NCBI RefSeq assembly: GCF_003337215.1
Contig: NZ_QPIG01000001.1
Location: 930,001-994,000, forward strand
Length of the DNA stretch: 64,000 bases
Source of the DNA: Oceanihabitans sediminis
Lineage (GTDB): Bacteria > Bacteroidota > Bacteroidia > Flavobacteriales > Flavobacteriaceae
Reading direction: 5' to 3'
The number at the start of each line of letters is the position of its first letter. The first letter of the stretch is position 1. Of this stretch, positions 34,744 to 62,414 are shown in pieces. A model generated the notes under the pieces. It saw only the letters and a list, made by a program, of their open reading frames with translations. It made no database searches and had not been told where the DNA came from. The position numbers and the translations under genes were made by a program.

Positions 34744-35056
34744 TAGTTGTTTTATTTATTTCAAGTATAGTATTTCTTCCATACCGCATTGTCCCTTTGA
34801 CTAAAGGGAAGAGCAACCACCAAATAAACATTATAACAAAACAACATAGCTAATCGTATAGCAGCTCCCCTCTTTAGTTAAAGAGGGGAATGAATTTGCT
34901 GAAGCTCCGCGAAAGCAAAGAAAGGGGAGTTTGAAAATGAAACTCTAAGTTATATTAGAAAACAATGTCATTCCTACGCAGACAGGAATCTTCTTAAGAA
35001 CAAATTAAAAAAAGTAATGTGTTCATTTACAATAATAAGCCCCTTAGCAGACCCCC

Positions 35057-35214
35057 GGCCTATCGAGGATTTATCGTAAAATTTGAAATGCAGACACCGT
35101 AAAATTTTAGGCTGTTTGAGCTTAACAAAATACTATTTTACCTAAAATTCTAATAGCGAGTTCCTAAAATTTAGGTGTCAAATGATAAATTTAGATAAAG
35201 CATCGTCAGCCTAG
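35057..35214 (+). repeat. type A foldback core, copy A1
   Basis: This core begins GGCCTATCGAGGATTTATCG and ends CATCGTCAGCCTAG. The outer arms GGC/GCC and the inner arms (GACACCGTAAAATTTTAGG against CCTAAAATTTAGGTGTC) make an imperfect hairpin of about 158 nt, followed by ACTTTTTT. Confidence 0.85.
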
Positions 35215-35337
35215 ACTTTTTTGGTTACTTTTTTGGTCGATGCAAAAAAGTAATATTAATAATAGAAATTCTCCTGTCATTCCTGCAAAAGCAGGAATCC
35301 ACTAAAACCCCAAAAACAAAAACTACTAAAAAACCAC

Positions 35338-35411
35338 AACCGGTGCGAAGGAATCACGGAAGCGGTTCCATTGCTCGATGGATACGGTGGCATTCCTTTA
35401 CGGAACCGGTG
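35338..35411. repeat. unique GC-rich insert with 8-bp direct repeats at its ends
   Basis: AACCGGTG occurs at 35338-35345 and 35404-35411, flanking about 58 bp that contains inverted segments (AAGGAAT and ATTCCTT). It interrupts the otherwise regular array and occurs only once. Confidence 0.55.
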
Positions 35412-35697
35412 GTGTTTATCCACCTCCCTTTGACTAAAGGAAGGAGCAACCAGCCAACAAACATTATATTAAAACAACATAGCTCATCATGTAGCAGCTC
35501 CCCTCTTTAGTTAAAGAGGGGAATGAATTTGCTGAAGCTCCGCGAAAGCAAAGAAAGGGGAGTTTGAAAATGAAACTCTAAGTTATATTATAAAGCTATC
35601 ATTCCTGCGCAGGCAGGAATCCATTACAACATAAAACTAAAAAGTATTTCTCCCAATAATTATTCTTTATAATATAAATACCACTTAGCATGCCACC

Positions 35698-35854
35698 GGC
35701 CTACGAGGATTTATCGTAAAATTTGATATGCAGACACCGTAAAATTTTAGGCTGTTTGAGCTTAACAAAATACTATTTTACCTAAAATTCTAATAGCGAG
35801 TTCCTAAAATTTAGTTGTCAAATGATAAATTTAGATAAAGCATCGTCAGCCTAG
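35698..35854 (+). repeat. type A foldback core, copy A2
   Basis: A one-base-shorter copy (GGCCTACGAGG instead of GGCCTATCGAGG) with a T for G in the second inner arm (TTTAGTTGTC). Its downstream flank (35855 to about 36000) is shared with copy A8 in the right array. Confidence 0.85.
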
Positions 35855-36323
35855 ACTTTTTTGGTTACTTTTTTGGGCAATGCAAATCAAAGATTCACGA
35901 ACACAACTTTAAATAAATAAAAAATAGTGAGTAAAAAAGTAATTATTCTTTATAGTTCCTGCTTCCACAGCAATGACAATCCCGTTTGTATTTAAGCAAA
36001 GAATAAAACGAAAACTTCCTTGCTTTTAGAGACAAACCCTCCGTCTAGCCCTCCTTCGTCAAGCTTTCCACCTCCCTTTGACTAAAGGGAGGTGCAACCA
36101 ACCAACAAACATTATAACAAAACAACATAGCTCATCATGTAGCAGTTCCCCTCTTTAGCTAAAGAGGGGAATGAATTTGCTAAAGCTCTGCGAAAGCAAA
36201 GAAAGGGGAGTTTGAAAGTAAAGTTTTAAGTGTATTAGTAAAGCTGTCATTACTGCTTACATCTAAAAACTATTTCTCCTAGAAAATCATTATTTTAAAG
36301 AAAAAGCCCCTTAGCAGACCCCC

Positions 36324-36481
36324 GGCCTATCGAGGATTTATCGTAAAATTTGAAATGCAGACACCGTAAAATTTTAGGCTGTTTGAGCTTAACAAAATAC
36401 TATTTTACCTAAAATTCTAATAGCGAGTTCCTAAAATTTAGGTGTCAAATGATAAATTTAGATAAAGCATCGTCAGCCTAG
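36324..36481 (+). repeat. type A foldback core, copy A3
   Basis: This copy matches A1 as far as could be read by eye. The spacing to A4 (565 bp) and A5 (564 bp) shows a tandem array of whole units. Confidence 0.85.
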
Positions 36482-36888
36482 ACTTTTTTGGTTACTTTTT
36501 TGGGCAATGCAAAAAAGTAATGTTAATTATATAAATCTTATTGTCATTCCTGCAAAAGCAGGAATCCACCTCAAAACCAATAAGTAAATCAAATAACCAA
36601 ACCCTCCGTCTAGCCCTCCTTCGTCAAGCTACCCACCTCCCTTTGACTAAAGGGAGGAGCAGGGAAATAAGAAACATTATTTTAAAACAACATAGCTCAT
36701 CGTGTAGCAGCTCCCCTCTTTAGCTAAAGAGGGGAATGAATTTGCTGAAGCTCTGCGAAAGCAAAGAAAGGGGAGTTTGAAAGTAAAGTTCTAAGTGTAT
36801 TAGTAAAGCTGTCATTACTGCTTACATCTAAAAACTATTTCTCCTAGAAAATCATTATTTTAAAGAAAAAGCCCCTTAGCAGACCACC

Positions 36889-37046
36889 GGCCTATCGAGG
36901 ATTTATCGTAAAATTTGAAATGCAGACACCGTAAAATTTTAGGCTGTTTGAGCTTAACAAAATACTATTTTACCTAAAATTCTAATAGCGAGTTCCTAAA
37001 ATTTAGGTGTCAAATGATAAATTTAGATAAAGCATCGTCAGCCTAG
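36889..37046 (+). repeat. type A foldback core, copy A4
   Basis: Near-identical to A3, with CCACCGGCC for CCCCCGGCC in the flank. It is part of the regular stretch with about 565-bp spacing. Confidence 0.85.
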
Positions 37047-37452
37047 ACTTTTTTGGTTACTTTTTTGGGCAATGCAAAAAAGTAATGTTAATTATATAAA
37101 TCTTATTGTCATTCCTGCAAAAGCAGGAATCCACCTCAAAACCAATAAGTAAATTAAAAACCAAACCCTCCGTTTAGCTCTCCTTCGTCAAGCTACCCAC
37201 CTCCCTTTGACTAAAGGGAGGAGCAAGCAACCAACAAACATTATATTAAAACAACATAGCTCATCATGTAGCAGTTCCCCTCTTTAGCTAAAGAGGGGAA
37301 TGAATTTGCTAAAGCTCCGCGAAAGCAAAGAAAGGGGAGTTTGAAAGTAAAGTTCTAAGTGTATTAGTAAAGCTGTCATTACTGCTTACATCTAAAAACT
37401 ATTTCTCCTAGAAAATTATTATTTTAAAGAAAAAGCCCCTTAGCAGACCCCC

Positions 37453-37610
37453 GGCCTATCGAGGATTTATCGTAAAATTTGAAATGCAGACACCGTAAAA
37501 TTTTAGGCTGTTTGAGCTTAACAAAATACTATTTTACCTAAAATTCTAATAGCGAGTTCCTAAAATTTAGGTGTCAAATGAAAAATTTAGATAAAGGCTC
37601 GTCAGCCTAG
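37453..37610 (+). repeat. type A foldback core, copy A5
   Basis: This variant has AAATGAAAAATTT for AAATGATAAATTT and AAGGCTCGTC for AAGCATCGTC. It shares these changes with A7, so A5 and A7 form a subtype. Confidence 0.85.
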
Positions 37611-38015
37611 ACTTTTTTGGTTACTTTTTTGGGCAATGCAAAAAAGTAATGTTAATTATATAAATCTTATTGTCATTCCTGCAAAAGCAGGAATCCATTT
37701 CAAAACCAATAAATAAATTAAAAACCAAACCCTCCGTCTAGCCCTCCTTTGTCAAGCTACCCACCTCCCTTTGCCTAAAGGGAGGAGCAACCAACCAACA
37801 AACATTATAACAAAACAACATAGCTCATCGTGTAGCAGCTCCCCTCTTTAGCTAAAGAGGGGAATGAATTTGCTGAAGCTCCGCGAAAGCAAAGAAAGGG
37901 GAGTTTGAAAGTAAAGTTCTAAGTGTATTAGTAAAGCTGTCATTACTGCTTACATCTAAAAACTAATTCTCCTAGAAAATTATTATTTTAAAGAAAAAGC
38001 CCCTTAGCATGCCCC

Positions 38016-38148
38016 GGCTTATTTTTCGTTTGCGTAGTAAAACAAGCAAAAGCCGCAGTGGGGACGCGGAGGATGGCCTAGCGCAGCGTTTTGCCATCCG
38101 CATGATAAGGCTTTTGAGTAGTTTTCAAGTAAACGAAAATCCGCCTAG
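38016..38148 (+). repeat. type B foldback core, copy B1
   Basis: A 133-nt core from GGCTTATTTTTC to CCGCCTAG. The left arm CGTTTGC pairs with the right arm GTAAACG (matched G-type). The inner stem is GCGGAGGATGGC with GCCATCCGC. Confidence 0.85.
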
Positions 38149-38554
38149 ACTTTTTTGGTTACTTTTTTGGTCGATGCAAAAAAGTAATATTAATAATAGA
38201 AATTCTCCTGTCATTCCTGCAAAAGCAGGAATCCATTTCAAAACCAATAAATAAATCAAATAACCAAACCCTCCGTCTAGCCCTCCTTCGTCAAGCTATC
38301 CACCTCCCTTTGACTAAAGGGAGGTGCAACCAACCAACAAACATTATAACAAAACAACATAGCTCATCATGTAGCAGTTCCCCTCTTTAGCTAAAGAGGG
38401 GAATGAATTTGCTAAAGCTCCGCGAAAGCAAAGAAAGGGGAGTTTGAAAGTAAAGTTCTAAGTGTATTAGTAAAGCTGTCATTACTGCTTACATCTAAAA
38501 ACTATTTCTCCTAGAAAATCATTATTTTAAAGAATAAGCCCATTATTAAGCCCC

Positions 38555-38687
38555 GGCTTATTTTTCCTTTGCGTAGTAAAACAAACAAAAACCGCAGTGG
38601 GGACGTGGAGGATGGCCTAGCGCAGCGTTTTGCCATCCGCATGATAAGGCTTTTGAGTAGTTTTCAAGCAAAGGAAAATCCGCCTAG
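38555..38687 (+). repeat. type B foldback core, copy B2
   Basis: The left arm is CCTTTGC and the right arm GCAAAGG: both arms changed together relative to B1 (matched C-type). Confidence 0.85.
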
Positions 38688-38839
38688 ACTTTTTTGGTTA
38701 CTTTTTTGGTCGATGCAAAAAAGTAATATAAAATTCCTACTGTCATTCCTGCAAAAGCAGGAATCCACTACAGCTTACATCTAAACTATTTCTCCTAGAA
38801 AATCATTATTTTAAAGAAAAAGCCCCTTAGCATGCCACC

Positions 38840-38997
38840 GGCCTATCGAGGATTTATCGTAAAATTTGAAATGCAGACACCGTAAAATTTTAGGCTGTTT
38901 GAGCTTAACAAAATACTATTTTACCTAAAATTCTAATAGCGAGTTCCTAAAATTTAGGTGTCAAATGATAAATTTAGATAAAGCATCGTCAGCCTAG
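38840..38997 (+). repeat. type A foldback core, copy A6
   Basis: This copy is like A1/A3 and lies only about 150 bp after B2. The M1 and M2 modules are missing between them, so it marks a deletion or recombination joint in the array. Confidence 0.85.
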
Positions 38998-39402
38998 ACT
39001 TTTTTGGTTACTTTTTTGGGCAATGCAAAAAAGTAATGTTAATTATATAAATCTTATTGTCATTCCTGCAAAAGCAGGAATCCATTTCAAAACCAATAAA
39101 TAAATTAAAAACCAAACCCTCCGTCTAGCCCTCCTTCGTCAAGCTATCCACCTCCCTTTGACTAAAGGGAGGTGCAACCAACCAACAAACATTATAACAA
39201 AACAACATAGCTCATCATGTAGCAGTTCCCCTCTTTAGCTAAAGAGGGGAATGAATTTGCTAAAGCTCCGCGAAAGCAAAGAAAGGGGAGTTTGAAAGTA
39301 AAGTTTTAAGTGTATTAGTAAAGCTGTCATTACTGCTTACATCTAAAAAGTATTTCTCCCAATAATTATTCTTTATAATATAAATGCCCCTTAGCATGCC
39401 CC

Positions 39403-39535
39403 GGCTTATTTTTCGTTTGCGTAGTAAAACAAGCAAAAGCCGCAGTGGGGACGCGGAGGATGGCCTAGCGCAGCGTTTTGCCATCCGCATGATAAGGCTT
39501 TTGAGTAGTTTTCAAGTAAACGAAAATCCGCCTAG
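39403..39535 (+). repeat. type B foldback core, copy B3
   Basis: Matched G-type arms (CGTTTGC with GTAAACG), near-identical to B1. It is followed by the M4 and M5 modules. Confidence 0.85.
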
Positions 39536-39693
39536 ACTTTTTTGGTTACTTTTTTGGGTAATGCAAAAAAGTAATGTTAATTATATAAATCTTATCGTCA
39601 TTCCTGCAAAAGCAGGAATCCACTACAGCTTACATCTAAACTAATTCTCCTAGAAAATCATTATTTTAAAGAATAAGCCCCTTAGCATGCCCC

Positions 39694-39851
39694 GGCCTAT
39701 CGAGGATTTATCGTAAAATTTGAAATGCAGACACCGTAAAATTTTAGGCTGTTTGAGCTTTACAAAATACTATTTTACCTAAAATTCTAATAGCGAGTTC
39801 CTAAAATTTAGGTGTCAAATGAAAAATTTAGATAAAGGCTCGTCAGCCTAG
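39694..39851 (+). repeat. type A foldback core, copy A7
   Basis: It carries the A5 subtype changes (GAAAAATTT, AAGGCTCGTC) and GAGCTTTACAAAA for GAGCTTAACAAAA. It is the last core before the polysaccharide locus. Confidence 0.85.
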
Positions 39852-40331
39852 ACTTTTTTGGTTACTTTTTTGGGCAATGCAAAAAAGTAATGTTAATTAT
39901 ATAAATCTTATTGTCATTCCTGCATAAGCAGGAATCCATTTCAAAACCAATAAATAAATCAAATAACCAAACCCTCCGTCTAGCCCTCCTTCGTCAAGCT
40001 ATCCACCTCCCTTTGACTAAAGGGAGGAGCAGGGAAACAAGAAATATTATTTTAAACTTAAGATACTTCCCTAGATACCTCCTTCTAAATGAAAGACTTC
40101 TCCTGTTGCTATTTTTTTCAAAATACCCAAAACAGCATATTTAGGTAAAATTCCTTTTAGCATTTATAGAAAGGCTTTGCCTTCTAAAAACATAAATATA
40201 ATTTAAAACACTTAGTTAGAGAGCATACATCAGTTGTAGCTTCTATCTTTCATTTATATTGCTAGAGAAATGTGGTATTTGGTCTAATATTTTGCTATTT
40301 TTACAGAGCTAATTAATCTTAAAGCCAAGCC

Positions 40332-40811: not shown

Positions 40812-41107
40812 GCGGTGTTTTTTTTACTTGTAAATTGAGGAAAAAAAGCCTATACTAATTAAAATTTTATGTAAATCGCCAAGCCTTTTTGTGACAGGTA
40901 ATGGCGGAGCCCTGAAAAGAACTCAGGACTTGTGTTTTTAAAAACGCTTACATACAGTAGATTAGAACGAATTCCAATAGCTAAATATTCTTAGGAAAAC
41001 ACTTGTGATTTTGCAACTCCCCTCTGTTTCAAGTATCCTTAAACCAGCCAATTATAATATATTGGTAAACATTATATGTATATAAAAATAAACTAGTTTT
41101 GGATCTC
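40812..41107 (+). promoter_or_regulatory. untranslated leader between upxY-like gene and the glycan genes
   Basis: This region has no gene. It contains a G/C-rich island at 40903-40914 (GGCGGAGCCCTG) resembling in outline the enterobacterial ops pause element GGCGGTAGC, and a small stem CCTGA/TCAGG. Such leaders are where NusG paralogues load in other systems. Both the resemblance and the role are inference. Confidence 0.35.
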
Positions 41108-42235
41108 ATGCCTACCAACCACGCCGAACTCATGGCATTTCTTTCCGAATATAAAATATTTTCGGCTGCTATTATCTTGTTATACTCTTTGGTGGTCACC
41201 ATGATTATCATGCCAAGGATTGTAATAATTAGTAAAAAGAAGAACCTTACAGCGCAGACCAATTCACGCACCTCTCATAAAGGAGTCGTGCCTACACTTG
41301 GAGGAGTAGGGGTTTTTACTGGGCTTATATTAACAGTAAATTTTGCTGCTATTCTATTTGCAGACTATGAGCAGTATGTTAATTTATCTATTTTTAATAT
41401 ACTTACCCTATTACTTTTATTGGTTGGTATTACAGACGATTTAATGAACACCTCTCCAAGAAAAAAGTTCTTGTACCAGTTACTTATCTCCTTGGTCTTC
41501 ATTTTTGGTACCAATATTCATATCGACTCTTTTTTCGGACTTTTAGGAATTCATGACATACCAAATGTGCTAGCATCTGTTTTTTCAGCATTTGTAATTG
41601 TATTGCTTATCAATGCTTATAATTTAATTGATGGTATCGATGGCTTAGCTGGTTTGGTAGGAGTTATTGTTTCTGGTTTTATGGCCTTAGCCTTCTATTT
41701 AAGCGGTAATTTCTTTTATAGTTTAATATCCCTATCCTTAGTAGGAGCCCTAATAAGTTTCTTGATATACAACTTCTCTAGAAGAATGAAAATCTTTTTA
41801 GGCGACACTGGCTCTATGGTAGTAGGTTTTGTTCTAGCATACCAAGTGGTGTTGTACTTGAGCTTAGCTAACGGCAATTCAGAAGCATTTGTTTTTAAAA
41901 ACGCACCAATTTTTGCCTTAGCATTAGTATCCTATCCCTTATTCGATACTTTACGAGTAATGTGCCTAAGGCTTTTAAATAAAAAAAGTCCCTTTTTAGC
42001 AGATAGGAACCATATTCATCACCGATTGATAGATCTAGGTTTAGCCCATAAATACGCTAGTCTAGCAGTAGCCTTTTATACGCTGTTGGTAACTATTGTT
42101 GCAGTTAGCATCAACAGTTTGCCTATAAACATAGCTTTTATTATAATGCTTGTGGTAGTAACCTGTTTATTGCTGTTGCCATTTGCAATTTGTAAAAAGG
42201 AGGGAGCATGGAGTTTTCGATTTCCTAAAGCATAA
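41108..42235 (+). CDS. WecA/MraY-family glycosyl-1-phosphate transferase (chain initiation)
   Basis: This 375-residue polytopic membrane enzyme is of the PNPT family, which transfers a sugar-1-phosphate to undecaprenyl phosphate. It has SHKGVVPTLGG, the catalytic ITDDLMNTSPRKKF, NAYNLIDGIDGLAG, RMKIFLGDTGSM and the C-terminal NHIHHRLIDLGL. It is closer to WecA/TagO than to MraY by the HIHH motif. It probably starts the repeat unit of the surface polysaccharide. ATG 41108 is preferred over TTG 41099. Confidence 0.92.
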   Translation: MPTNHAELMAFLSEYKIFSAAIILLYSLVVTMIIMPRIVIISKKKNLTAQTNSRTSHKGVVPTLGGVGVFTGLILTVNFAAILFADYEQYVNLSIFNILTLLLLLVGITDDLMNTSPRKKFLYQLLISLVFIFGTNIHIDSFFGLLGIHDIPNVLASVFSAFVIVLLINAYNLIDGIDGLAGLVGVIVSGFMALAFYLSGNFFYSLISLSLVGALISFLIYNFSRRMKIFLGDTGSMVVGFVLAYQVVLYLSLANGNSEAFVFKNAPIFALALVSYPLFDTLRVMCLRLLNKKSPFLADRNHIHHRLIDLGLAHKYASLAVAFYTLLVTIVAVSINSLPINIAFIIMLVVVTCLLLLPFAICKKEGAWSFRFPKA

Positions 42236-42295
42236 ATACCATTAAAACCTTTAGCAGGTTTATATTAATAATACATTAAAACGAATATATATACT

Positions 42296-43579
42296 ATGAA
42301 AATAGCCGTTATCGGATTAGGTTATGTGGGATTACCACTAGCACGATTATTTGCAACAAAATATCCAGTAATTGGATTTGATATTAACGAAGCAAGAGTA
42401 AAAGAATTACAACAAGGTACCGATTCCACTTTAGAAGTAGAAGACGCTGTATTACAAGCGGTATCGGTTCCAAATCCAGAATTGCTATTAGAAAAAGGTG
42501 AAAACGGATTGTTTTGTACCACCAATTTAGAACATATTGCTACTTGTACGCATTATATTATTACCGTTCCTACTCCTGTAGATAAAAACAACAGACCAGA
42601 TCTTACTCCGCTACATAAAGCTAGTGAAACCGTAGGAAAAGTACTTAAAAAAGGAGATGTCGTTATTTACGAATCTACAGTATATCCAGGCGCTACGGAA
42701 GAAGAATGCATACCAATCTTAGAAAAAGTATCTGGTATGACTTTTAATACCGATTTCTTTGCAGGCTATTCACCAGAAAGAATCAACCCGGGAGATAAAG
42801 AGCATACAGTAGATAAAATTTTAAAAGTAACCTCGGGTTCTACTCCAGAAATCGGACAGCAGGTAGATGCACTATATAAAAGTGTGATTACTGCCGGAAC
42901 CCATTTAGCACCATGCATCAAGGTGGCAGAAGCTGCAAAGGTAATTGAGAATTCACAACGAGATATCAATATTGCCTTTGTTAACGAACTAGCGAAGATT
43001 TTTAACCGCTTAGACATTAATACCAAAGATGTATTAGAAGCTGCAGCTACCAAATGGAACTTCTTGCATTTTAAACCAGGCTTAGTTGGCGGACACTGTA
43101 TTGGGGTAGATCCTTACTACCTAGCACAAAAAGCTCAAGAAGTTGGATATCACCCAGAAATCATTTTGGCTGGACGTCGTATGAACGATTCTATGGGAGG
43201 ATATGTAGCTTCAGAAGTAGTAAAGCTAATGCTTGCCAAGGACGTAAAAGTAAAAGGAGCGAATGTTTTAATGCTAGGAATTACTTTTAAGGAAAACTGT
43301 CCAGACGTTCGTAATACTAGAGTGGTTGATGTAGTGCAGGAATTAGAATCTTACGGAATCAACGTAACCATCTATGATCCTTTAGCTTCTCCAGAAGAAG
43401 TAGCCCACGAATACCAACTAAAAACCGTTAAAACCAAACCAGAAGGAAAATTCGAAGCAGTTGTTTTAGCTGTAGCACATAAAGAATTCCTTAGCACCAA
43501 TCTAGATAGCTTAAAAGCAGAGAATGCTGTGGTATATGATGTAAAAGGAGTTTTAGCGGAATCGGAAGGGAAACTTTAG
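42296..43579 (+). CDS. nucleotide-sugar dehydrogenase (TviB/WbpO-type)
   Basis: This 427-residue UDP-sugar 6-dehydrogenase has the NAD motif IAVIGLGYVGLPLARLFA, TPVDKNNRPDLTPL, the substrate-binding YSPERINPGDKEH, and catalytic C268 in VGGHCIGVDPYYLA. TviB/WbpO enzymes oxidise UDP-HexNAc to the uronic acid. Paired with the epimerase at 44556, it likely supplies a HexNAc uronic acid. Confidence 0.93.
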   Translation: MKIAVIGLGYVGLPLARLFATKYPVIGFDINEARVKELQQGTDSTLEVEDAVLQAVSVPNPELLLEKGENGLFCTTNLEHIATCTHYIITVPTPVDKNNRPDLTPLHKASETVGKVLKKGDVVIYESTVYPGATEEECIPILEKVSGMTFNTDFFAGYSPERINPGDKEHTVDKILKVTSGSTPEIGQQVDALYKSVITAGTHLAPCIKVAEAAKVIENSQRDINIAFVNELAKIFNRLDINTKDVLEAAATKWNFLHFKPGLVGGHCIGVDPYYLAQKAQEVGYHPEIILAGRRMNDSMGGYVASEVVKLMLAKDVKVKGANVLMLGITFKENCPDVRNTRVVDVVQELESYGINVTIYDPLASPEEVAHEYQLKTVKTKPEGKFEAVVLAVAHKEFLSTNLDSLKAENAVVYDVKGVLAESEGKL

Positions 43580-43673
43580 ATAGTATCAAGTGCTTAGTAA
43601 TTAAAGCATCTAAAAGCTATTTATTTATAACATTATTTCTCGGATTTGGTAGATTAAAACGGATTTCACTGAA

Positions 43674-44057
43674 GTGTCTAAATTATTACATAAAGAGGAA
43701 ACCTATAGAATCATCGGGTTATGTATGAAAGTCCACAAAGCTTTGGGTAAAGGTTTTCTGGAATCTGTTTATGAAGAAGCCCTTGAAAAGGAGTTCTTAA
43801 AAGAGAACATCCCCTATGAAAAACAAAAGCGCCTTCGTATATATTATAACGGAGAAAGGATGGACAAATACTTTGTTGCGGATTTTATGTGCTATGATAA
43901 AATAATTATCGAATTAAAGGCAGCCGATTATATGCATAAGAATATGGAAGCCCAAGTAATAAATTACCTTAAAGCAACGAAGAAAGAAGTGGGATTACTT
44001 ATAAACTTTGGAGAAGCGAGTCTTAAATGGAAACGCTTCATTAATACCTCCGTGTAA
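43674..44057 (+). CDS. GxxExxY protein
   Basis: This 127-residue protein has the name-giving motif GKGFLESVYEEAL, then FVADFMCYDKIIIELKAAD and QVINYLKATKKEVGLLINFG. The DxxxxxxxIELK-type arrangement resembles PD-(D/E)xK nuclease-fold proteins. It starts with GTG. It is flanked by CCGTGTAATCCGTGACAAAT-like sequence at 44050. It has no evident role in glycan synthesis, and such genes move between loci. Confidence 0.88.
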   Translation: MSKLLHKEETYRIIGLCMKVHKALGKGFLESVYEEALEKEFLKENIPYEKQKRLRIYYNGERMDKYFVADFMCYDKIIIELKAADYMHKNMEAQVINYLKATKKEVGLLINFGEASLKWKRFINTSV

Positions 44058-44097
44058 TCCGTGACAAATCCGCGTAATTTTAATGAATAAAACAACA

Positions 44098-44211: not shown

Positions 44212-44216
44212 GGCAA

Positions 44217-44501: not shown

Positions 44502-44555
44502 TACCTTACGAAATCTAAGATTTGTTTAACAGGATTTCACAGGTCAAGAAAATAA

Positions 44556-45557: not shown

Positions 45558-45675
45558 TAATATGATAGCCATGTTGCTTTAATACAGTTTAAGCTTAGAT
45601 TAAATTTCTAGCTTTTAGAAAATTTACAAATAGAAGAGGACATATACTTTATGTATATTAATATGTAGCACGTTA

Positions 45676-49490: not shown

Positions 49491-49491
49491 G

Positions 49492-53478: not shown

Positions 53479-54452
53479 TACAAATAAACGACTCAGAAGT
53501 TTTTTTTCAGATTCAAAAAAAAATAGGTAAAATTCCATTTACCCAGTCTGAAGGTTGGTATAAACAACAATTACAACAAAAAGGAAATATTGTTTTTTTT
53601 GTGGATAGCAAAACAGATTCGAATATTGCTTTTTGGGGAAAAGTACAAAATATTCCTTTTACTCAGAATAAAATTCTTTTTGTTAATGGAGAAACAATAT
53701 CACAAGATATAAATGAAAAAAAAATAAGATCTTTTTATAAGAAGCTTCTAGAATTAAATTATACTGCTATTGAATTTAATAGTAATTCTGAGTACAATAT
53801 TGATTATGAGATTGGTTTGCGTCGAGCGGGTTTTGTAAGGCCTATAGGTCTGTTTTCGTGTCCGTTAACTATAAATTTTCAAGTGTCTGAGGAGTTTAGG
53901 TTTGACAATAACTGGAAGAGGAATGTAAAAAAAGCAATAGCTGCTGAATTGCAATTTAAAGAAATTAAGAATACGTCAACTGAAATTGTTTTAGATGTGA
54001 TATCCATGTTTAAAGAGATGGCAGATTTAAAGAATTTGGGTTATCAATTAGAGGAAGATAGTTTAACAAGCCTTTTAAAAAGCCATGATATGAGATTGTT
54101 TATGGTTTATGATAAGCTAGGAACTCCTATTGCAGCTAGAATTGTTCATGATAACAAACCATTTGCATCAGATATTTATGCAGCAAATTCTATAGAGGCA
54201 CGTGATACGGGTGCAACTTATTTTATAATGCAAAGTATATTTGAGGTTTTGAAGAAAGAAAATTATAAAGAATTTGATTTTGGAAGGATACCTCCTAGTA
54301 ATCATGCTACAGATAGTGTTTATGTATTTAAAAATGCATCACGAGGAAAAAAAATACAATATAATGGGGAGTGGAGTTTTTATAAAAATCATCTAATTGA
54401 GATTTTAATGTTTTTCTATAAAAATTTCAAATTAAAAAAACAACGCTACTAA
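53475..54452 (+). CDS. FemAB/GNAT-type aminoacyl- or acyltransferase-like protein
   Basis: This 325-residue protein resembles FemAB-like enzymes (lipid II:glycine glycyltransferase-related family of polysaccharide loci). The C-terminal GNAT half has GTPIAARIVHDNKPFASDIY, the phrase EARDTGATYFIMQSIFEVLK and YKEFDFGRIPPSNHATDSVY. It may attach an amino acid or acyl group to a sugar. Substrate unknown. Confidence 0.75.
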   Translation: MIQINDSEVFFQIQKKIGKIPFTQSEGWYKQQLQQKGNIVFFVDSKTDSNIAFWGKVQNIPFTQNKILFVNGETISQDINEKKIRSFYKKLLELNYTAIEFNSNSEYNIDYEIGLRRAGFVRPIGLFSCPLTINFQVSEEFRFDNNWKRNVKKAIAAELQFKEIKNTSTEIVLDVISMFKEMADLKNLGYQLEEDSLTSLLKSHDMRLFMVYDKLGTPIAARIVHDNKPFASDIYAANSIEARDTGATYFIMQSIFEVLKKENYKEFDFGRIPPSNHATDSVYVFKNASRGKKIQYNGEWSFYKNHLIEILMFFYKNFKLKKQRY

Positions 54453-55490
54453 ATGAAAGTGCTAATTAATACTCCTGACACTTCTTTTTTTGGTGGCGTA
54501 GCCAACCACTATAAAGGCCTTAAGCCATATTGGTCACATAATGTTAAATATAACTTTGTAGGAGGGCGTAAGAGGATTCCAGGACCTATATTATTGATTT
54601 ATGATTATTTGAAATTTTTCATTTTGTGCGCTTTTGGCAACTATGATGTTATTTTATTAAATCCATCATTAGGTAAAACAGCAATTAAAAGAGACGCCTT
54701 GTTTCTAAGAATAGCTAGTGTGTTTAAAATAAAAACGGTAGTATTTTTTCATGGTTGGTCCCCAGACATGGTTAATGTATTAAATATTAGTTCTAAAAAA
54801 TTTTGTAATACTTTTAATAAAGCAGATAAAATAATTGTCTTAGCTAAATCCTTTAAAACCGATTTAATGAAGTGGGGAATAACTCGACCGATTTATTTAA
54901 CCACTACAAAAGTGAACGATGAAATGTTAAAAGATTTTGATTTTAATTATAAACCTTGGGATAGCAATATTCTTTTTTTGACAAGAATAGAGATATATAA
55001 AGGTATTTTTACAACACTTGAAGCCTATAAAATTTTGAAACCAGACTTCCCAAATCTGTCCCTTACTATAGCAGGTGATGGTTCTAAATTAGAAGATGCA
55101 AAAGATTTTGTAAAGGAATACAAATTAGAAGATGTAACCTTTTTAGGAAGTATTTCTGGTGATGAGTTAATAAAAACATTTTCTAAGGCATCTATATATA
55201 TATTACCTTCTCATGGTGAAGGTATGCCTACTTCTGTATTGGAGGCGATGGCGTTTGGAATACCAATTATTTCAAGACCAGTGGGTGGGTTAGTAGATTT
55301 TTTTAAGGAGAGTGAAAACGGTTATTTAATCGAAAGTTATCAACCTGAAAAATATGCGGGAAAAATAACTCAGCTATTAAAAGAGTCTGATACGTGCAAA
55401 AGGATAGGAGAGTACAACCATATTTATGCTAAAAATAATTTTATGGCTTCAAAGGTAGCTTTAAAATTAGAAGAAATTTTAAACTATTAA
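54453..55490 (+). CDS. glycosyltransferase family 4
   Basis: This 345-residue GT-B protein has an N-terminal TPDTSFFGGVANHYKGL, the donor domain start DSNILFLTRIEIYKGIFTTLE, and the classic GT4 nucleotide-sugar site YILPSHGEGMPTSVLEAMAFG (E-x7-E). It follows the FemAB gene with no gap. Confidence 0.92.
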   Translation: MKVLINTPDTSFFGGVANHYKGLKPYWSHNVKYNFVGGRKRIPGPILLIYDYLKFFILCAFGNYDVILLNPSLGKTAIKRDALFLRIASVFKIKTVVFFHGWSPDMVNVLNISSKKFCNTFNKADKIIVLAKSFKTDLMKWGITRPIYLTTTKVNDEMLKDFDFNYKPWDSNILFLTRIEIYKGIFTTLEAYKILKPDFPNLSLTIAGDGSKLEDAKDFVKEYKLEDVTFLGSISGDELIKTFSKASIYILPSHGEGMPTSVLEAMAFGIPIISRPVGGLVDFFKESENGYLIESYQPEKYAGKITQLLKESDTCKRIGEYNHIYAKNNFMASKVALKLEEILNY

Positions 55491-55492
55491 AA

Positions 55493-55972
55493 ATGTTATT
55501 ATTACATAGAATTGCTCATTTTCTTTATAAAAAAAATATACCATTTTTCCCTAAATTAATGGAAGCATTAATATTTTTAATTTTTAATAGTCGCATTCCT
55601 TCAGATGTTAGTATTGGAAAAGGCTCTAAGTTTGCCTATCAAGGGCTTTCTACTTTATTAGTTAAAGGTACAGTGATAGGAGAAAACTGTATTATTGGAA
55701 TGAGGGCAACCACAGGACGTAAGTTTCCTTATAAAAATGTACCTAGAATAGGAGATAAAGTTTGGATAGGTGTTAATAGTGTTATTATAGGTCCTGTAAT
55801 AATAGAGGATAATGTGATTATAGCACCGAATTCAGTGGTTAATAAAAGTGTTCCAGAATATAAAATTGTAGGTGGTAATCCAGCAAAGATTATTGGGGAT
55901 GTTAGAAATCTAGATTATGATGTTTTTTCGAATCCTAAATATAAAGAAGGGTTTTCGAAATACTTGAATTAA
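55493..55972 (+). CDS. serine acetyltransferase-like hexapeptide transferase
   Basis: This 159-residue left-handed beta-helix protein resembles the short CysE-like transferases of polysaccharide loci: LLLHRIAHFLYKKNIPFFPK, GENCIIGMRATTGRKFPYKN, GDKVWIGVNSVIIGPVIIED, YKIVGGNPAKIIG. It lacks the N-terminal helical domain of true CysE, so a sugar substrate is more likely than serine. Confidence 0.87.
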   Translation: MLLLHRIAHFLYKKNIPFFPKLMEALIFLIFNSRIPSDVSIGKGSKFAYQGLSTLLVKGTVIGENCIIGMRATTGRKFPYKNVPRIGDKVWIGVNSVIIGPVIIEDNVIIAPNSVVNKSVPEYKIVGGNPAKIIGDVRNLDYDVFSNPKYKEGFSKYLN

Positions 55973-55976
55973 TAAT

Positions 55977-57167
55977 ATGAATAATTTAATAAATTCATTT
56001 AATAAATTAAAGCATTACTGCGAAGAAGAAAACTTCGCTGGTTGGGATCCTTATGATGGCTTGAATTCCAAAATATTTAAGGCAACACCTTTAAAACATT
56101 GGGATATTGCTCGTTTGGTTATGATTCAAGGTTTTAAACGTAGTCCTATTAATTTTAGAAAATTATTATTAGTTCCAAAACAGCATAATGCTAAGGGAAT
56201 TGGGCTGTTTCTAAATGGCTATTGTAACTTATACAAACTAGTTGAGAAAGGTGATACTCGTTTTGGTAGTCAAGAAGAAATTTTAAGCCGTATTGAGGAA
56301 TTGGCAGATCTACTTTTAAAAATGCAAAATAAGGACTATTCCGGAGCTTGTTGGGGGTATAATTTTGATTGGCAAGCTCGTCGTTTGTTTTTATTCCCAG
56401 CAGATACGCCTACAGTGGTGGCTACCTCTTTTTGTGTTACAGCATTATTGAATGCTTATGAAATCACAAAGAATCAAAGTTATTTAGATACCGCTCTTTC
56501 GGCAGGTAATTTTGTGTTAAATGACTTAAATCGTACAGAGTATAAATCTGGGTTTTTGTTCTCTTATTCTCCGCTAAATGGTAACAATACGGTTTTCAAT
56601 GCTAGTTTATTAGGAGCAAAAGTGTTGAGTCAGTTATATAGATATAACAACAATGAGCTTTATAAAGATACAGCTACTACAGCTATAAAAGCAGCCGTAG
56701 AAGCGCAAAATAAAGACGGTTCATGGGTATATGGTATGTTGTCTGTGCAATCTTGGATCGATTCTTTCCATACTGGGTATAATTTGGATGCCATTCAGAC
56801 CTATCAAGATAAAACTGGGGATACGCAATTTAAAGAAAGCATTGAAAAAGGATTTAAATATTATATGGAAAACTTCTTCCTTGAAGACGGCACGCCAAAA
56901 TATTATCATGACAAAACCTATCCAATAGATATTCATTGTCCGGGACAGTTATTCGTGAATTTATCCGTCAACAAAAAGTATGAAGAAAATAAAGACCTTG
57001 CTCATTCGGTTTTCAATTGGGTAACCAAAAACATGCAAGATAAAAAAGGTTACTTTTATTATCAGTTAAAAGAAGGCGTAAGTTCCAAGATACCGTATAT
57101 GCGATGGAGCAATGCGTTTATGTTTAATGCTTTGAGTTACCTATTAGTAGAAGAAAATGAATTATAA
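55977..57167 (+). CDS. alpha/alpha-toroid (six-hairpin-like) protein of glycan loci
   Basis: This 396-residue protein has repeated helical pairs (ADTPTVVATSFCVTALLNAYE, NNTVFNASLLGAKVLSQLY, SWIDSFHTGYNLDAIQTY, HCPGQLFVNLS) of the kind seen in six-hairpin glycosidases and GlcNAc 2-epimerase-type folds. Homologues are sometimes labelled delta-aminolevulinic acid dehydratase, but no Schiff-base Lys or zinc motif of that enzyme is visible. A role as lyase, hydrolase or epimerase acting on the polymer is inferred. It has no signal peptide. Confidence 0.7.
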   Translation: MNNLINSFNKLKHYCEEENFAGWDPYDGLNSKIFKATPLKHWDIARLVMIQGFKRSPINFRKLLLVPKQHNAKGIGLFLNGYCNLYKLVEKGDTRFGSQEEILSRIEELADLLLKMQNKDYSGACWGYNFDWQARRLFLFPADTPTVVATSFCVTALLNAYEITKNQSYLDTALSAGNFVLNDLNRTEYKSGFLFSYSPLNGNNTVFNASLLGAKVLSQLYRYNNNELYKDTATTAIKAAVEAQNKDGSWVYGMLSVQSWIDSFHTGYNLDAIQTYQDKTGDTQFKESIEKGFKYYMENFFLEDGTPKYYHDKTYPIDIHCPGQLFVNLSVNKKYEENKDLAHSVFNWVTKNMQDKKGYFYYQLKEGVSSKIPYMRWSNAFMFNALSYLLVEENEL

Positions 57168-57855
57168 AGAATTAAATGGTGTAAAAGCCTATGCACCACA
57201 ATCTCGAAAAGAGTTAATAGATTATGCGTTCAAGAACAAATCTATTCTAGTCGCTATCAACGCTGAGAAAATACTTCACGCAACCGATGAGTCACGTGAT
57301 ATCATTAATCGCAATTTAGGCTACCCAGATGGGATAGGTGCTGTATGGGCCTTACAGAAAAAAGGCTGTGAAAATATTGTAAAAATTCCAGGTTGTGAGT
57401 TGTGGTTAGATATAGTAAGTCAACACTATAAAGAAAAGACTTTTTATTTGGTAGGAGGTAAACAAGAGGTTATACAAGAAACCGTTGATAAATTGAAACT
57501 TGAGTACCCAGGTATTAAAATTGTTAATTATAGAAACGGCTATATTAAAACAGATCACGAAAAACAAGCATTAATTGCTGATATAATAGATAAAAAACCG
57601 GATGTTGTATTTGTGGCTATGGGTTCACCTAAACAAGAACTTTTAATGGAAGAAATGCAACAAAAGCACGCTGCACTTTATCAGGGCTTAGGCGGAAGCT
57701 TTGATGTCTATACAGGTAATGTAGAACGTGCACCAAATTGGTGGGTTAGAAACAATATGGAGTGGACCTACCGTTTAATAAAACAACCATCGCGAATAAA
57801 AAGACAAATACATTTGGTAAGATTCTTTGTGAATTTACACCTTAATAGATATTAA
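57157..57855 (+). CDS. WecG/TagA/CpsF family glycosyltransferase
   Basis: This 232-residue GT26 enzyme has LVAINAEKILHA, GYPDGIGAVWALQKKG with the probable catalytic Asp58, VVFVAMGSPKQE and the C-terminal basic tail ERAPNWWVRNNMEWTYRLIKQPSR. WecG and TagA transfer ManNAc(A) to a lipid-linked GlcNAc, which suits the UDP-ManNAc-forming WecB-like enzyme next to it. It overlaps the toroid gene by 11 bp. Confidence 0.93.
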   Translation: MNYKELNGVKAYAPQSRKELIDYAFKNKSILVAINAEKILHATDESRDIINRNLGYPDGIGAVWALQKKGCENIVKIPGCELWLDIVSQHYKEKTFYLVGGKQEVIQETVDKLKLEYPGIKIVNYRNGYIKTDHEKQALIADIIDKKPDVVFVAMGSPKQELLMEEMQQKHAALYQGLGGSFDVYTGNVERAPNWWVRNNMEWTYRLIKQPSRIKRQIHLVRFFVNLHLNRY

Positions 57856-57860
57856 TTATT

Positions 57861-58946
57861 ATGAAAAAAATAACAATCATAGCTGGTGCTAGACCAAACT
57901 TCATGAAAATAGCACCTATCATTCATGCTATTCACGAAGCACAAAGTCAAGGAAAGGATATTACTTATAGATTGGTGCATACTGGGCAGCACTACGACAA
58001 GAAAATGTCTGGAAACTTTTTTAAACAATTAGAAATTCCAGAACCACATAGTAATCTAGAAGCAGGAGGTGGAACCCAAGCAGCGCAAACCGCGAATATC
58101 ATGCTGCGCTTTGAGCAGGAACTTTTAGCTCATCCAACAGATTTGGTTTTAGTGGTAGGAGATGTAACCTCTACTATGGCTTGTAGTATTACCGCTAAGA
58201 AATTAAATATTAAAGTAGCACATGTGGAGGCTGGAATCCGTTCTGGAGACCTTTCTATGCCAGAAGAAATCAACCGTATGCTAACGGATGCTATTACAGA
58301 TATATTCTTTACGACTTCAGAATTAGCAAATAGCAATTTACGTCAAGCTGGTGTTCCAGATAGTCGTATCCACTTTGTTGGAAACACCATGATAGACACC
58401 CTATTAAAACAGCGCCCAAACTTTAAGCCGCCTCCAATATGGGGAGAATTAGGCTTAGCTAGAGAGAAATACATTGTGTTAACCCTACACCGCCCTGCAA
58501 ATGTGGATGAGGAGTCACAGCTTAAAGCTATGCTAGAGCAAATTATAGCTCATACAGAAAATCTTCCTTTAGTGTTCCCGGTACATCCACGAACAGCTAA
58601 GATTTTAGAAGGTTTACAGGTGCAAGATGATAGATTGCATATGATAGAGCCTCTAAGTTATTTAGAGTTTAATTACTTGGTGGAAAACGCCAAAGCAGTG
58701 ATTACCGACTCTGGTGGAATCACAGAAGAAGCTTCTATTATGAACGTGCCTTGTTTAACCTTACGTGACAATACAGAACGCCCAGAGACCATCACACTTG
58801 GAACTAATGAATTAGTAGGCACGAATCCTGATAACATGAAACCCTATCTGCAAAAACTATTTGCTGGTAACTGGAAACAAACACAAACTATCCCGATGTG
58901 GGACGGGCAAACAGCAAAGCGTATTATAAAGGTACTGACTTCATAA
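57861..58946 (+). CDS. wecB: UDP-N-acetylglucosamine 2-epimerase (non-hydrolysing)
   Basis: This 361-residue GT-B-like epimerase converts UDP-GlcNAc to UDP-ManNAc. It has IIAGARPNFMKIAPI, VHTGQHYDKKMS, VVGDVTSTMACSI, HVEAGIRSGDLSMPEEINR, LTLHRPANVD and ITDSGGITEEASIMNVPCLTLRD. It provides the donor for the WecG-like transferase upstream. The last gene of the locus; a strong terminator follows. Confidence 0.95.
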   Translation: MKKITIIAGARPNFMKIAPIIHAIHEAQSQGKDITYRLVHTGQHYDKKMSGNFFKQLEIPEPHSNLEAGGGTQAAQTANIMLRFEQELLAHPTDLVLVVGDVTSTMACSITAKKLNIKVAHVEAGIRSGDLSMPEEINRMLTDAITDIFFTTSELANSNLRQAGVPDSRIHFVGNTMIDTLLKQRPNFKPPPIWGELGLAREKYIVLTLHRPANVDEESQLKAMLEQIIAHTENLPLVFPVHPRTAKILEGLQVQDDRLHMIEPLSYLEFNYLVENAKAVITDSGGITEEASIMNVPCLTLRDNTERPETITLGTNELVGTNPDNMKPYLQKLFAGNWKQTQTIPMWDGQTAKRIIKVLTS

Positions 58947-59020: not shown

Positions 59021-59084
59021 TATTAAGCTCTACTACTATACTATTATACTACTATGTAATCCCGAATGCAATATATAGGTATAG

Positions 59085-59132: not shown

Positions 59133-59368
59133 GGAATCTTTTTATCATAAATGGGTCATTCCTGCCCAAACAAAAAGCCAATTAATAACTGTAAAACATA
59201 ATACTTGATAAGAGATTCTTCCCTCGTTCCTCCCTCTCTGAAGGACAATAGCCTATGCATTGCACTTTGTCATTCCTGCGCAGGCAGGAATCCATTACAG
59301 CTATATCTTTAAAAAATGTTTTTTCCAATAAGTATCCTTTTTACTAGTAAGCTAATTAGTAGGACCCC

Positions 59369-59501
59369 GGCTTATTTTTCCTTTGCGTAGTAAAACAAAC
59401 AAAAGACGCAGTGGGGATGCGGAGGATGGCCTAGCGCAGCGTTTTGCCATCCGCATGATAATGCTTTTGTGTAGTTTTCAAGCAAAGGAAAATCCGCCTA
59501 G
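59369..59501 (+). repeat. type B foldback core, copy B4
   Basis: Matched C-type arms (CCTTTGC with GCAAAGG). Inner loop has AAAGACGCAG for AAAGCCGCAG and ATGCTTTTGTG for AGGCTTTTGAG, a pair of changes on opposite arms. Confidence 0.85.
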
Positions 59502-59755
59502 ATTTTTTTGGTTCGTTTTTTCATCGATGAAATTGAAGATTCACGAACACCGATTTAACAATAAAGAGAGTGAGTAAAAAAATGAACATTATTATAAAGT
59601 AGAGATTCTTCGGTCGTTCTTACCTCTGAAGGACAATAGTCTATGCATTGCACTTTGTCATTCCTGCGCAGGCAGGAATCCATTACAGCTTACATCTATA
59701 AAGTATTTTTACCAAAAAGTATCTTTGTAAAGAATAAGCTACTTAGTAGGCACCC

Positions 59756-59888
59756 GGCTTATTTTTCGTTTGCGTAGTAAAACAAATAAAAGCCGCAGTG
59801 GGGATGTGGAGGATGGCCTAGCGCAGCGTTTTGCCATCCGCATGATAAGGGTTTTGTGTAGTTTTCAAGCAAAGGAAAATCCGCCTAG
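59756..59888 (+). repeat. type B foldback core, copy B5
   Basis: Mismatched arms: left CGTTTGC with right GCAAAGG. It looks like a chimera between a G-type and a C-type copy. Confidence 0.85.
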
Positions 59889-60294
59889 ACTTTTTTGGTT
59901 ACTTTTTTGGTCGATGCAAAAAAGTAATATCAATAATAGAAATTTTCCTGTCATTCCTGCAAAAGCAGGAATCCATTTCAAAACCAATAAATAAATCAAA
60001 TAACCAAACCCTCCGTCTAGCCCTCCTTCGTCAAGCTATCCACCTCCCTTTGACTAAAGGAAGGAGCAACCAGCCAACAAACATTATAACAAAACAACAT
60101 AGCTAATCGTATAGCAGCTCCCCTCTTTAGCTAAAGAGGGGAATGAATTTGCTGAAGCTCCGCGAAAGCAAAGAAAGGGGAGTTTGAAAGTAAAGTTCTA
60201 AGTGTATTAGTAAAGCTGTCATTACTGCTTACATCTAAAAAGTATTTCTCCCAATAATTATTCTTTATATTATAAATACCTCTTAGCATGCCCC

Positions 60295-60427
60295 GGCTTA
60301 TTTTTCCTTTGCGTAGTAAAACAAATAAAAGCCGCAGCGGGGATGCGGAGGATGGCCTAGCGCAGCGTTTTGCCATCCGCATGATAAGGCTTTTGTGTAG
60401 TTTTCAAGCAAAGGAAAATCCGCCTAG
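60295..60427 (+). repeat. type B foldback core, copy B6
   Basis: Matched C-type arms. It lies in a direct duplication: about 400 bp from near 60009 recur about 867 bp downstream, ending inside copy B7. Confidence 0.85.
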
Positions 60428-60549
60428 ATTTTTTTGGTTCGTTTTTTGATCAATGCAAAAAATGAATATTATTATAAACTTAAGATTCTTCCATTGTTAC
60501 CTTCCTCTGCATGACATTTTCTTTTGAAAAAGCCTCTTAGTATGCCCCC

Positions 60550-60707
60550 GGCCTATCGAGGATTTATCGTAAAATTTGATATGCAGACACCGTAAAATTT
60601 TAGGCTGTTTGAGCTTGTTATAATATTCTATGAAGTTTAATTAACCTAGCGAGTTCCTAAAATTTAGGTGTCAAATGATAAATTTAGATAAAGCATCGTC
60701 AGCCTAG
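60550..60707 (+). repeat. type A foldback core, copy A8
   Basis: The only type A core in the right array. Its central loop differs (TTGTTATAATATTCTATGAAG) from the left copies, but both arms are kept. Its right flank (60708 to about 60870) matches the flank of copy A2 in the left array. Confidence 0.85.
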
Positions 60708-61161
60708 ACTTTTTTGGTTACTTTTTTGGGCAATGCAAATCAAAGATTCACGAACACAACTTTAAATAAATAAAAAATAGTGAGTAAAAAAGTAATTATT
60801 CTTTATAGTTCCTGCTTCCATAGGAATGACAATCCTGTTTGTATTTAAGCAAAGACTAAAACGAAAAATTTCAAACCCTCCGTCTAGCTCTCCTTCGTCA
60901 AGCTATCCACCTCCCTTTGACTAAAGGAAGGAGCAACCAGCCAACAAACATTATAACAAAACAACATAGCTAATCGTATAGCAGCTCCCCTCTTTAGCTA
61001 AAGAGGGGAATGAATTTGCTGAAGCTCCGCGAAAGCAAAGAAAGGGGAGTTTGAAAGTAAAGTTCTAAGTGTATTAGTAAAGCTGTCATTACTGCTTACA
61101 TCTAAAAAGTATTTCTCCCAATAATTATTCTTTATATTATAAATACCTCTTAGCATGCCCC

Positions 61162-61294
61162 GGCTTATTTTTCCTTTGCGTAGTAAAACAAATAAAAGCC
61201 GCAGCGGGGATGCGGAGGATGGCCTAGCGCAGCGTTTTGCCATCCGCATGATAAGGCTTTTGTGTAGTTTTCAAGTAAACGAAAATCCGCCTAG
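61162..61294 (+). repeat. type B foldback core, copy B7
   Basis: Mismatched arms: left CCTTTGC with right GTAAACG. The left half equals B6 and the right half equals B9/B10, which marks a recombination joint inside the hairpin. Confidence 0.85.
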
Positions 61295-61503
61295 ATTTTT
61301 TTTGGTTCGTTTTTTTCATCAATGGAAAAAAATGAACATTATCATTTATGAGATTCTTAGGTCGTTCTTCCCTCTGAAGGACAATAGTCTATGCATTGCA
61401 CTTTGTCATTCCTGCGCAGGCAGGAATCCATTACAGCTTACATCTATAAAGTATTTTTACCAAAAAGTATCTTTGTAAAGAATAAGCTACTTAGTAGGCA
61501 TCC

Positions 61504-61636
61504 GGCTTATTTTTCGTTTGCGTAGTAAAACAAATAAAAGCCGCAGTGGGGATGTGGAGGATGGCCTAGCGCAGCGTTTTGCCATCCGCATGATAAGGCT
61601 TTTGTGTAGTTTTCAAGCAAAGGAAAATCCGCCTAG
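61504..61636 (+). repeat. type B foldback core, copy B8
   Basis: Mismatched arms: left CGTTTGC with right GCAAAGG, the reciprocal of B7. Confidence 0.85.
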
Positions 61637-61842
61637 ATTTTTTTGGTTCGTTTTTTCATCGATGGAAAAAATGAACATTATAACTTATGAGATTCTTAGG
61701 TCGTTCTTCCCTCTGAAGGACAATAGTCTATGCATTGCACTTTGTCATTCCTGCGCAGGCAGGAATCCATTACTGCTTACATCTATAAAGTATTTTTACC
61801 AAAAAGTATCTTTGTAAAGAATAAGCTACTTAGTAGGCACCC

Positions 61843-61975
61843 GGCTTATTTTTCGTTTGCGTAGTAAAACAAATAAAAGCCGCAGCGGGGATGCGGAGGA
61901 TGGCCTAGCGCAGCGTTTTGCCATCCGCATGATAAGGCTTTTGTGTAGTTTTCAAGTAAACGAAAATCCGCCTAG
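61843..61975 (+). repeat. type B foldback core, copy B9
   Basis: Matched G-type arms (CGTTTGC with GTAAACG). It appears identical to B10 over the whole unit by eye. Confidence 0.85.
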
Positions 61976-62184
61976 ATTTTTTTTGGTTCGTTTTTTTCAT
62001 CAATGGAAAAAAATGAACATTATCATTTATGAGATTCTTAGGTCGTTCTTCCCTCTGAAGGACAATAGTCTATGCATTGCACTTTGTCATTCCTGCGCAG
62101 GCAGGAATCCATTACAGCTTACATCTATAAAGTATTTTTACCAAAAAGTATCTTTGTAAAGAATAAGCTACTTAGTAGGCACCC

Positions 62185-62317
62185 GGCTTATTTTTCGTTT
62201 GCGTAGTAAAACAAATAAAAGCCGCAGCGGGGATGCGGAGGATGGCCTAGCGCAGCGTTTTGCCATCCGCATGATAAGGCTTTTGTGTAGTTTTCAAGTA
62301 AACGAAAATCCGCCTAG
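62185..62317 (+). repeat. type B foldback core, copy B10
   Basis: Matched G-type arms; last core of the right array. The unit after it is cut off near 62390 by unique sequence leading to the ompA-type terminator. Confidence 0.85.
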
Positions 62318-62414
62318 ATTTTTTTTGGTTCGTTTTTTTCATCAATGGAAAAAAATGAACATTATCATTTATGAGATTCTTCAGTCGCTACTCTCCCTCT
62401 AAACAAAAAAATAA

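Follow-up and report, generated by a model that had tools for sequence, protein, structure and literature searches.

The 64,000-nucleotide stretch analysed here (the window; C11:930001–994000, C11 being one contig of the genome) comes from the draft genome of Oceanihabitans sediminis (2.9 Mb, 20 contigs, 97% complete) and carries a surface-polysaccharide gene cluster enclosed by two noncoding arrays of short modules, termed A, B, C1, C2 and D. The left mosaic array (34792–40056, + strand) contains nine A, seven C1, three C2 and ten D modules, with a unit of ~565 bp near its middle, and the right mosaic array (59272–62403, + strand) contains seven C2, two A, one C1 and six D modules and ends in a 342-bp tandem unit. 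Modules A, C1, C2 and D were mapped by profiles plus one pattern, and all 29 modules on the left and 16 on the right lie on the + strand wherever a strand is defined, confirming an earlier reading of the window (the sequence-only reading) that two mosaic arrays of the same orientation bracket a glycan locus. None of the array 25-mers, taken on both strands, recurs in the remainder of the window, so the array repeats lie far beyond chance. A perfect 7-bp tandem repeat, CCCTAAT in 4.9 copies (34377–34410), lies shortly before the left array.

Modules A, B, C1 and C2 measure ~75–216 nt, B being a short linker, and together with D they form arrays of ~1–5.3 kb. Element A (~216 nt; for example 36600–36815, + strand) contains two strong hairpins, CCTCCCTTT/AAAGGGAGG and CCCCTCTTT/AAAGAGGGG, and has relatives that adjoin stand-alone DUF559 genes. 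C1 (~190 nt; 36875–37105, + strand, in an example that includes the 3′ T-rich hairpin) and C2 (~150–190 nt and palindromic; 61491–61680, + strand) differ in their middles and have both ends in common: each starts with CGGCYTA and finishes with CCTAGAYTTTTTTGGTT followed by a T-rich hairpin, whose sides co-vary by eye (TTACTTTTTTG..CAAAAAAGTAA and GTTCGTTTTTTC..GAAAAAATGAAC). D is a 20-bp palindrome, ATTCCTGC-N4-GCAGGAAT (for example 37111–37130, strand undefined), and is absent between some neighbouring modules. In an alignment of two window copies of A and copies taken at 11 loci in other genomes, 97% of the cells were paired and both sides had changed in six of 18 pairs. The 15 cells with both sides changed, a number that 0 of 500 shuffles reach, exceed a shuffled mean of 2.9, the helices having been derived from the same alignment and relatedness being able to inflate such scores. 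With partners slid by one to three columns, at most 75% of the cells are paired and four are changed on both sides, and a measure of further pair types gives 8, below the shuffles' 9.5.

Between the arrays, the 19 open reading frames (ORFs) of at least 100 aa that were scanned against Pfam comprise glycan genes, one NusG-type gene, one gene for a PDDEXK_3 protein and two without a match. No transposase or integrase is found among these 19, in agreement with the sequence-only reading. The NusG-type gene (PF02357; 40332–40811, + strand) adjoins the left array and is followed by the polysaccharide cluster (41099–58946, + strand; Pfam), which encodes glycosyltransferases, a flippase, epimerases and hexapeptide transferases; the PDDEXK_3 gene (PF13366; 43674–44057, + strand) lies within this cluster, away from the arrays. 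The right array sits between the glycan genes and Wza-/Wzc-like genes just past the window end, with an OmpA-type gene at 62487 intervening; Wza and other names at both polysaccharide loci of the genome were assigned by similarity or by eye. The start of the epimerase gene recurs 462 bp upstream as a 65-bp direct repeat (44097–44161 and 44559–44623, 95% identical), and the second copy may be left over from an earlier copy of the gene.

All contigs of the genome were searched with the 564-bp unit and the C2 unit, yielding 73 and 51 matches (up to 11 and 2 initial candidates, respectively, were left unscored). All but one in each search, 72 and 50, lie at C11:964.8–992.4 kb or C14:150.0–203.6 kb, the two array-bearing glycan loci, and the sole outlier of each search is a short D-like match at C11:559 kb. 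Six arrays were found in total, two in the window and four on contig C14 (150.0–153.8, 181.3–182.3, 190.7–192.9 and 198.3–203.6 kb). The second polysaccharide locus occupies C14:158–196 kb; eight of the nine matches to glycosyltransferase family PF00534 on this contig fall within 159.8–183.0 kb, and Pfam further supports a Wzc-type protein as well as an ABC ATPase whose Wzt-like end scores just below the cut-off. The permease beside this ATPase has no Pfam match and is named wzm by position. Both array regions of the genome (2/2) thus adjoin surface-polysaccharide genes. All modules of the genome share one orientation per contig, as orientation-dependent chromosome sites such as strand-specific segregation or replication signals might do. 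Two observations make such sites a most improbable explanation: the modules cluster at two places only, and the + strand has a wobble-position G–C skew of ~+0.1 near the window and of ~−0.33 near the C14 arrays, which places the modules on opposite replication strands if skew marks the strand of replication. The skew likewise disfavours a replication-strand bias behind the common orientation.

The two window arrays do share long direct repeats, although the pair that the sequence-only reading had judged close to identical (35.7–36.3 kb versus 60.5–61.2 kb) proved on self-alignment to be 89.1% identical over 652 bp. The longest exact left–right match is 152 bp (35816–35967 with 60669–60820, both + strand), and the longest left–right alignment spans 1,684 bp at 85.7% identity. 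For 64 of the 73 A, C1 and C2 copies of the genome, the nearest relative lies within the same array. C1 copies are on average 97% identical inside the left array and 87–91% identical to those of other arrays. A copies of the left and right arrays are on average 93% identical, versus 80–87% to C14 copies, which argues for a closer shared history of the window arrays; for C2 no such closeness is seen, the identities being 88% between left and right and 90% between the left array and the array at C14:198 kb. Judged from these identities, the arrays evolve in a manner consistent with tandem duplication plus local conversion, and with a degree of exchange from one array to another.

Modules of this kind recur in relatives. 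C2 is present in 11 of 249 family genomes, O. sediminis included (E up to 1e-8, three candidates scored per genome), and a pattern scan of named genomes returned 34 stretches, in Bizionia, Leeuwenhoekiella, Xanthomarina, Zunongwangia, Haloflavibacter, isolate LYZ1037 and one metagenome genome labelled Hyphomicrobiales. Among six congeners, the unit search gave merely five short matches, in two genomes. Orthologs of the C14 locus carry modules in Bizionia algoritergicola (renamed Algorimicrobium according to the accessible part of PMC12843772), LYZ1037, Xanthomarina F1114, B. echini and X. gelatinilytica. Of the module matches in relatives, 15 of 19 in B. algoritergicola fall on C26:71–150 kb, all six in LYZ1037 at C12:501–512 kb, and 15 of 23 in F1114 on three glycan-locus contigs. 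Between the genes for the last glycosyltransferase and the sugar transferase lie three C2 copies in B. algoritergicola and five tandem copies in LYZ1037, and at this same position the F1114 contig terminates in A copies. The window locus has a counterpart on contig C7 of F1114, with a NusG-type protein (42% identical), an epimerase (82%) and export genes (42–50%), whose glycan genes are largely different and whose outer neighbours are unlike those of the window; A copies lie at the start of this contig and a mixed array lies at 42.7–44.9 kb.

The placement in relatives also bears on a regulatory or RNA function, in which the modules would be transcribed, for example to serve the NusG-type protein and the glycan operon as leaders or antitermination sites. 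Such a role would suit the covarying hairpins and the left array, which lies directly upstream of the NusG-type gene and is oriented as the operon. However, the modules of the C14 locus oppose the glycan genes, one array there lies past their downstream end, and at one orthologous position modules are sense in LYZ1037 and antisense in B. algoritergicola. A known RNA family was rejected because Rfam matches are absent from the window at the gathering score and from the left array even at E up to 1. We therefore regard a regulatory or RNA function as very unlikely.

Several further features were noted in the genomes of relatives. By eye, two genes next to the C2 copy of the metagenome genome labelled Hyphomicrobiales (L152, PAPH01000006.1) look like the C2 neighbours of Leeuwenhoekiella aestuarii (L155); this bin may therefore be mislabelled or mixed. 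One small-protein family occurs inside glycan loci of LYZ1037 (L181:4608–4916; GIY-YIG by Pfam) and X. gelatinilytica (L163; G044:C7:145432–145737); the two proteins are 74% identical and do not adjoin modules. A protein family of ~249 aa lies beside arrays in several genomes (L063:398–1147, equal to C14:180397–181146; L177:2004–2753; L183:3835–4584; L165:12171–12854). It was rejected as an array-borne gene: of its 47 matches in 16 genomes, loci were available for 30, and modules occur in only six of these 30, one being a single weak A match. Five members gave no significant Pfam match, five no PHROGs match and one no PDB match. In B. echini, a putative gene flanked by two C2 copies (L157:3800–4537) turned out to be a run of N.

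Allele replacement and insertion occur beside the arrays. B. echini and B. algoritergicola have recQ and lptB products that are 94% and 98% identical, but their wzm-position proteins are only 28% identical; conversely, the wzm-position protein of O. sediminis is 86% identical to that of B. algoritergicola, exceeding Wzc (73%) and the sugar transferase (67%). The transporter ATPase repeats this split (68% versus 43%), and modules adjoin the wzm-position gene in all three genomes. In B. algoritergicola, moreover, A arrays at 83.3–84.0 and 97.4–98.1 kb enclose ~13 kb carrying genes for a SusC-like receptor, SusD, a peptidase and others, an insert that is missing between ugd and the transporter genes in LYZ1037 and F1114. 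The arrays may have caused such exchanges.

The unexpected part is the link of element A to DUF559, a Vsr-like nuclease domain of the PD-(D/E)XK type. The single DUF559 match of the genome (C14:198658–199020) sits within an array, between two A elements; A copies also flank the DUF559 gene in B. algoritergicola and, weakly and on one side, in X. gelatinilytica. Diverged A elements adjoin DUF559 genes in three congeners (L203, L209 and L212), and in congener G002 the gene is set among tandem A-like units of ~198 bp. DUF559 matches occur in 68 of 199 Flavobacteriaceae genomes, and we assembled a set of 61 stand-alone loci, with ~17 further stand-alone genes, L211 (a neighbour of L205) and the O. 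sediminis locus kept outside it. A seed model built from O. sediminis copies only scored at least 20 bits at 14 of these 61 loci, at 0 of 23 fused loci (the domain lying within a longer ORF) and at one of 65 control segments (Fisher P 1.7e-4 versus controls and 0.009 versus fused), the controls being drawn from stretches holding C1, C2 or A and so slightly unfavourable to the link. An iterated model, trained on matches within the same 61 loci and biased toward them as the seed model is not, found A at 23 of the 61 loci and at no fused or control locus. Without any model, hairpins with GC-rich arms average 0.80, 0.26 and 0.05 per kb at stand-alone, fused and control loci, respectively. Stand-alone DUF559 genes amid runs of A-like units were seen at L203 (G002:C1:2782212), L232 and L248.

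Distances between DUF559 proteins correlate with distances between A elements (Mantel r 0.47, P 0.0001, n = 21 loci), with species relatedness as a confounder. The two DUF559 genes of genome G006, however, are accompanied by A elements of different types: by protein as well as by A, L212 clusters with L209 and L203, and L207 clusters with L241. This hints that species relatedness is not the only source of the pairing. In Caulobacter, an SOS response has been attributed to the DUF559 protein VsrA, with possible double-strand breaks, and VsrA has been placed in the PD-(D/E)XK superfamily (accessible part of PMC12907096); DNA cutting by DUF559 is therefore plausible. Taken together, A elements probably owe their production or movement in part to a DUF559 nuclease, which may act on A itself. 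A bolder proposal, which we consider unlikely, is that Flavobacteriaceae possess a class of nuclease-linked palindromes in which stand-alone DUF559 proteins recognise and cut the hairpins of their own A element and spread A as tandem arrays, and that these became exchange sites at polysaccharide loci.

We give about an even chance to a reading in which mosaic arrays, resembling the Neisseria intergenic mosaic elements (NIMEs) and partly spread by a nuclease-linked palindrome, supply homology for the exchange of surface-sugar genes. The short palindromic elements A, C1, C2 and D would cluster as mosaics, gaining new copies by tandem duplication and local homogenisation, while A copies would be made or moved with the help of the DUF559 nuclease whose genes sit among A elements. 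Arrays would then have accumulated at the surface-polysaccharide loci of this clade, where they would offer long, break-prone shared homology; recombination with incoming DNA, or of array with array, could insert, delete or replace the adjoining glycan and transporter genes.

The link to such loci was assessed across 13 genomes, using rounded positions and genome sizes. A PF00534 gene lies within 15 kb of 16 of 71 module clusters, against an expectation of 5.2 (P 4.5e-5, assuming independent clusters); the counts are 15 at 10 kb and 19 at 20 kb, against 3.8 and 6.7, and six genomes with module matches (G001, G004, G233, G236, G250 and G258) were left out. Without O. sediminis, 12 of 66 clusters are near PF00534, with ~4.6 expected by subtraction. 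The six genomes with an orthologous locus, a grouping chosen after the result was known, hold 14 of the 16 PF00534-near clusters among 32 clusters, with ~2.7 expected. Arrays are thus genuinely linked to variable surface loci in one part of the family but not in the other.

Several observations weigh against arrays as agents of exchange. The other seven genomes give 2 of 39 clusters near PF00534 (~2.5 expected), and in five of the 13, namely G099 (B. paragorgiae), G150 (Leeuwenhoekiella polynyae), G069, G106 and G259 (Zunongwangia pacifica), the count within 15 kb is 0 of 32. In O. sediminis itself, the PF00534 clusters at C13:147–161 kb and C11:608–616 kb are without arrays. No recombination junction, including a left-by-right deletion or swap, was observed in the assembled genomes compared, and gene replacement at surface loci can arise by ordinary homologous recombination without repeats. 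As for the nuclease, no A element reaches 20 bits at 38 of the 61 stand-alone loci even with the iterated model, and just four of 21 loci have the same nearest locus by DUF559 protein as by A. DUF559 cannot be required for C1 and C2, since C1 or C2 is present and a DUF559 match absent in LYZ1037 (which still has one A copy), B. echini, G099 and G106.

The same distribution bears on passive accumulation, in which selfish palindromic repeats would merely gather in tolerant polysaccharide loci, with their horizontally acquired genes and long intergenic gaps, and play no part in exchange. The five genomes whose modules lie away from PF00534 genes speak for it, as does homogenisation mainly inside each array, whereas an O. 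sediminis genome with no array beyond two loci and the repeated placement in relatives speak against it. We consider passive accumulation a serious alternative, though somewhat improbable. The proposal of the sequence-only reading that the arrays may act as exchange sites is partly supported; a serotype switch by recombination between the two window arrays, also suggested there, would be a further possibility. Restriction of arrays to two polysaccharide loci, shared placement in related genera, and replacement and insertion beside arrays favour it; homogenisation within arrays and the two array-free glycosyltransferase clusters do not, and the absence of module clusters near PF00534 genes in five of the 13 genomes agrees in part with what that reading itself named as a refutation.

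Among described systems, NIME arrays are the nearest counterpart of the O. sediminis arrays. According to the accessible part of PMC3898611, NIMEs combine 20-bp dRS3 palindromes with RS elements in intergenic arrays by surface-antigen genes and are proposed to promote recombination with acquired DNA; elements of 30–160 bp plus the 20-bp repeat form arrays of 200–2700 bp, with almost 700 dRS3 copies. Within the bounds of that account, both systems are mosaic intergenic arrays of short elements and a 20-bp palindrome of nearly the same layout, with surface-structure genes adjoining and with recombination as the proposed use. D, however, has ATTCCT..AGGAAT ends around its N4-centred core, whereas dRS3 is ATTCCC-N8-GGGAAT, one base off per side. 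The elements described here also differ in sequence, reach 216 nt and build arrays of up to 5.3 kb; array regions are few, lie at polysaccharide loci rather than by surface-protein genes, involve DUF559 and belong to another phylum.

Repetitive extragenic palindromic (REP) elements and bacterial interspersed mosaic elements (BIMEs) offer a second parallel: as far as the accessible text of PMC2817692 goes, their palindromes keep complementarity while changing, adjoin the gene of a REP-associated tyrosine transposase (RAYT) and may pile up near that gene. Element A similarly belongs to mosaic palindromes with kept complementarity beside the gene of a predicted DNA-cleaving enzyme. By the same partial account, the enzyme here differs, being DUF559 and not a Y1 transposase; modules in O. 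sediminis have one orientation, versus alternating REP elements; the element occurs at only some stand-alone DUF559 genes; and co-divergence is weak. A Y1 transposase was rejected as the engine, the genome giving no PF01797 match at E up to 1e-4. VsrA shares the DUF559 domain, and the accessible part of its report describes no link to palindromic repeats (PMC12907096). In the published literature covered, most subscription papers lying outside the search, we found no account of these arrays or of DUF559 with palindromic repeats.

If the arrays do supply homology for exchange, NIME-like surface diversification would have arisen separately in marine Bacteroidota, acting on whole polysaccharide loci. 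The polysaccharide coat is what phages and predators meet first. The DUF559 link, if right, would give this nuclease family a natural DNA substrate and make it, besides the RAYTs, a second enzyme type living with palindromic repeats.

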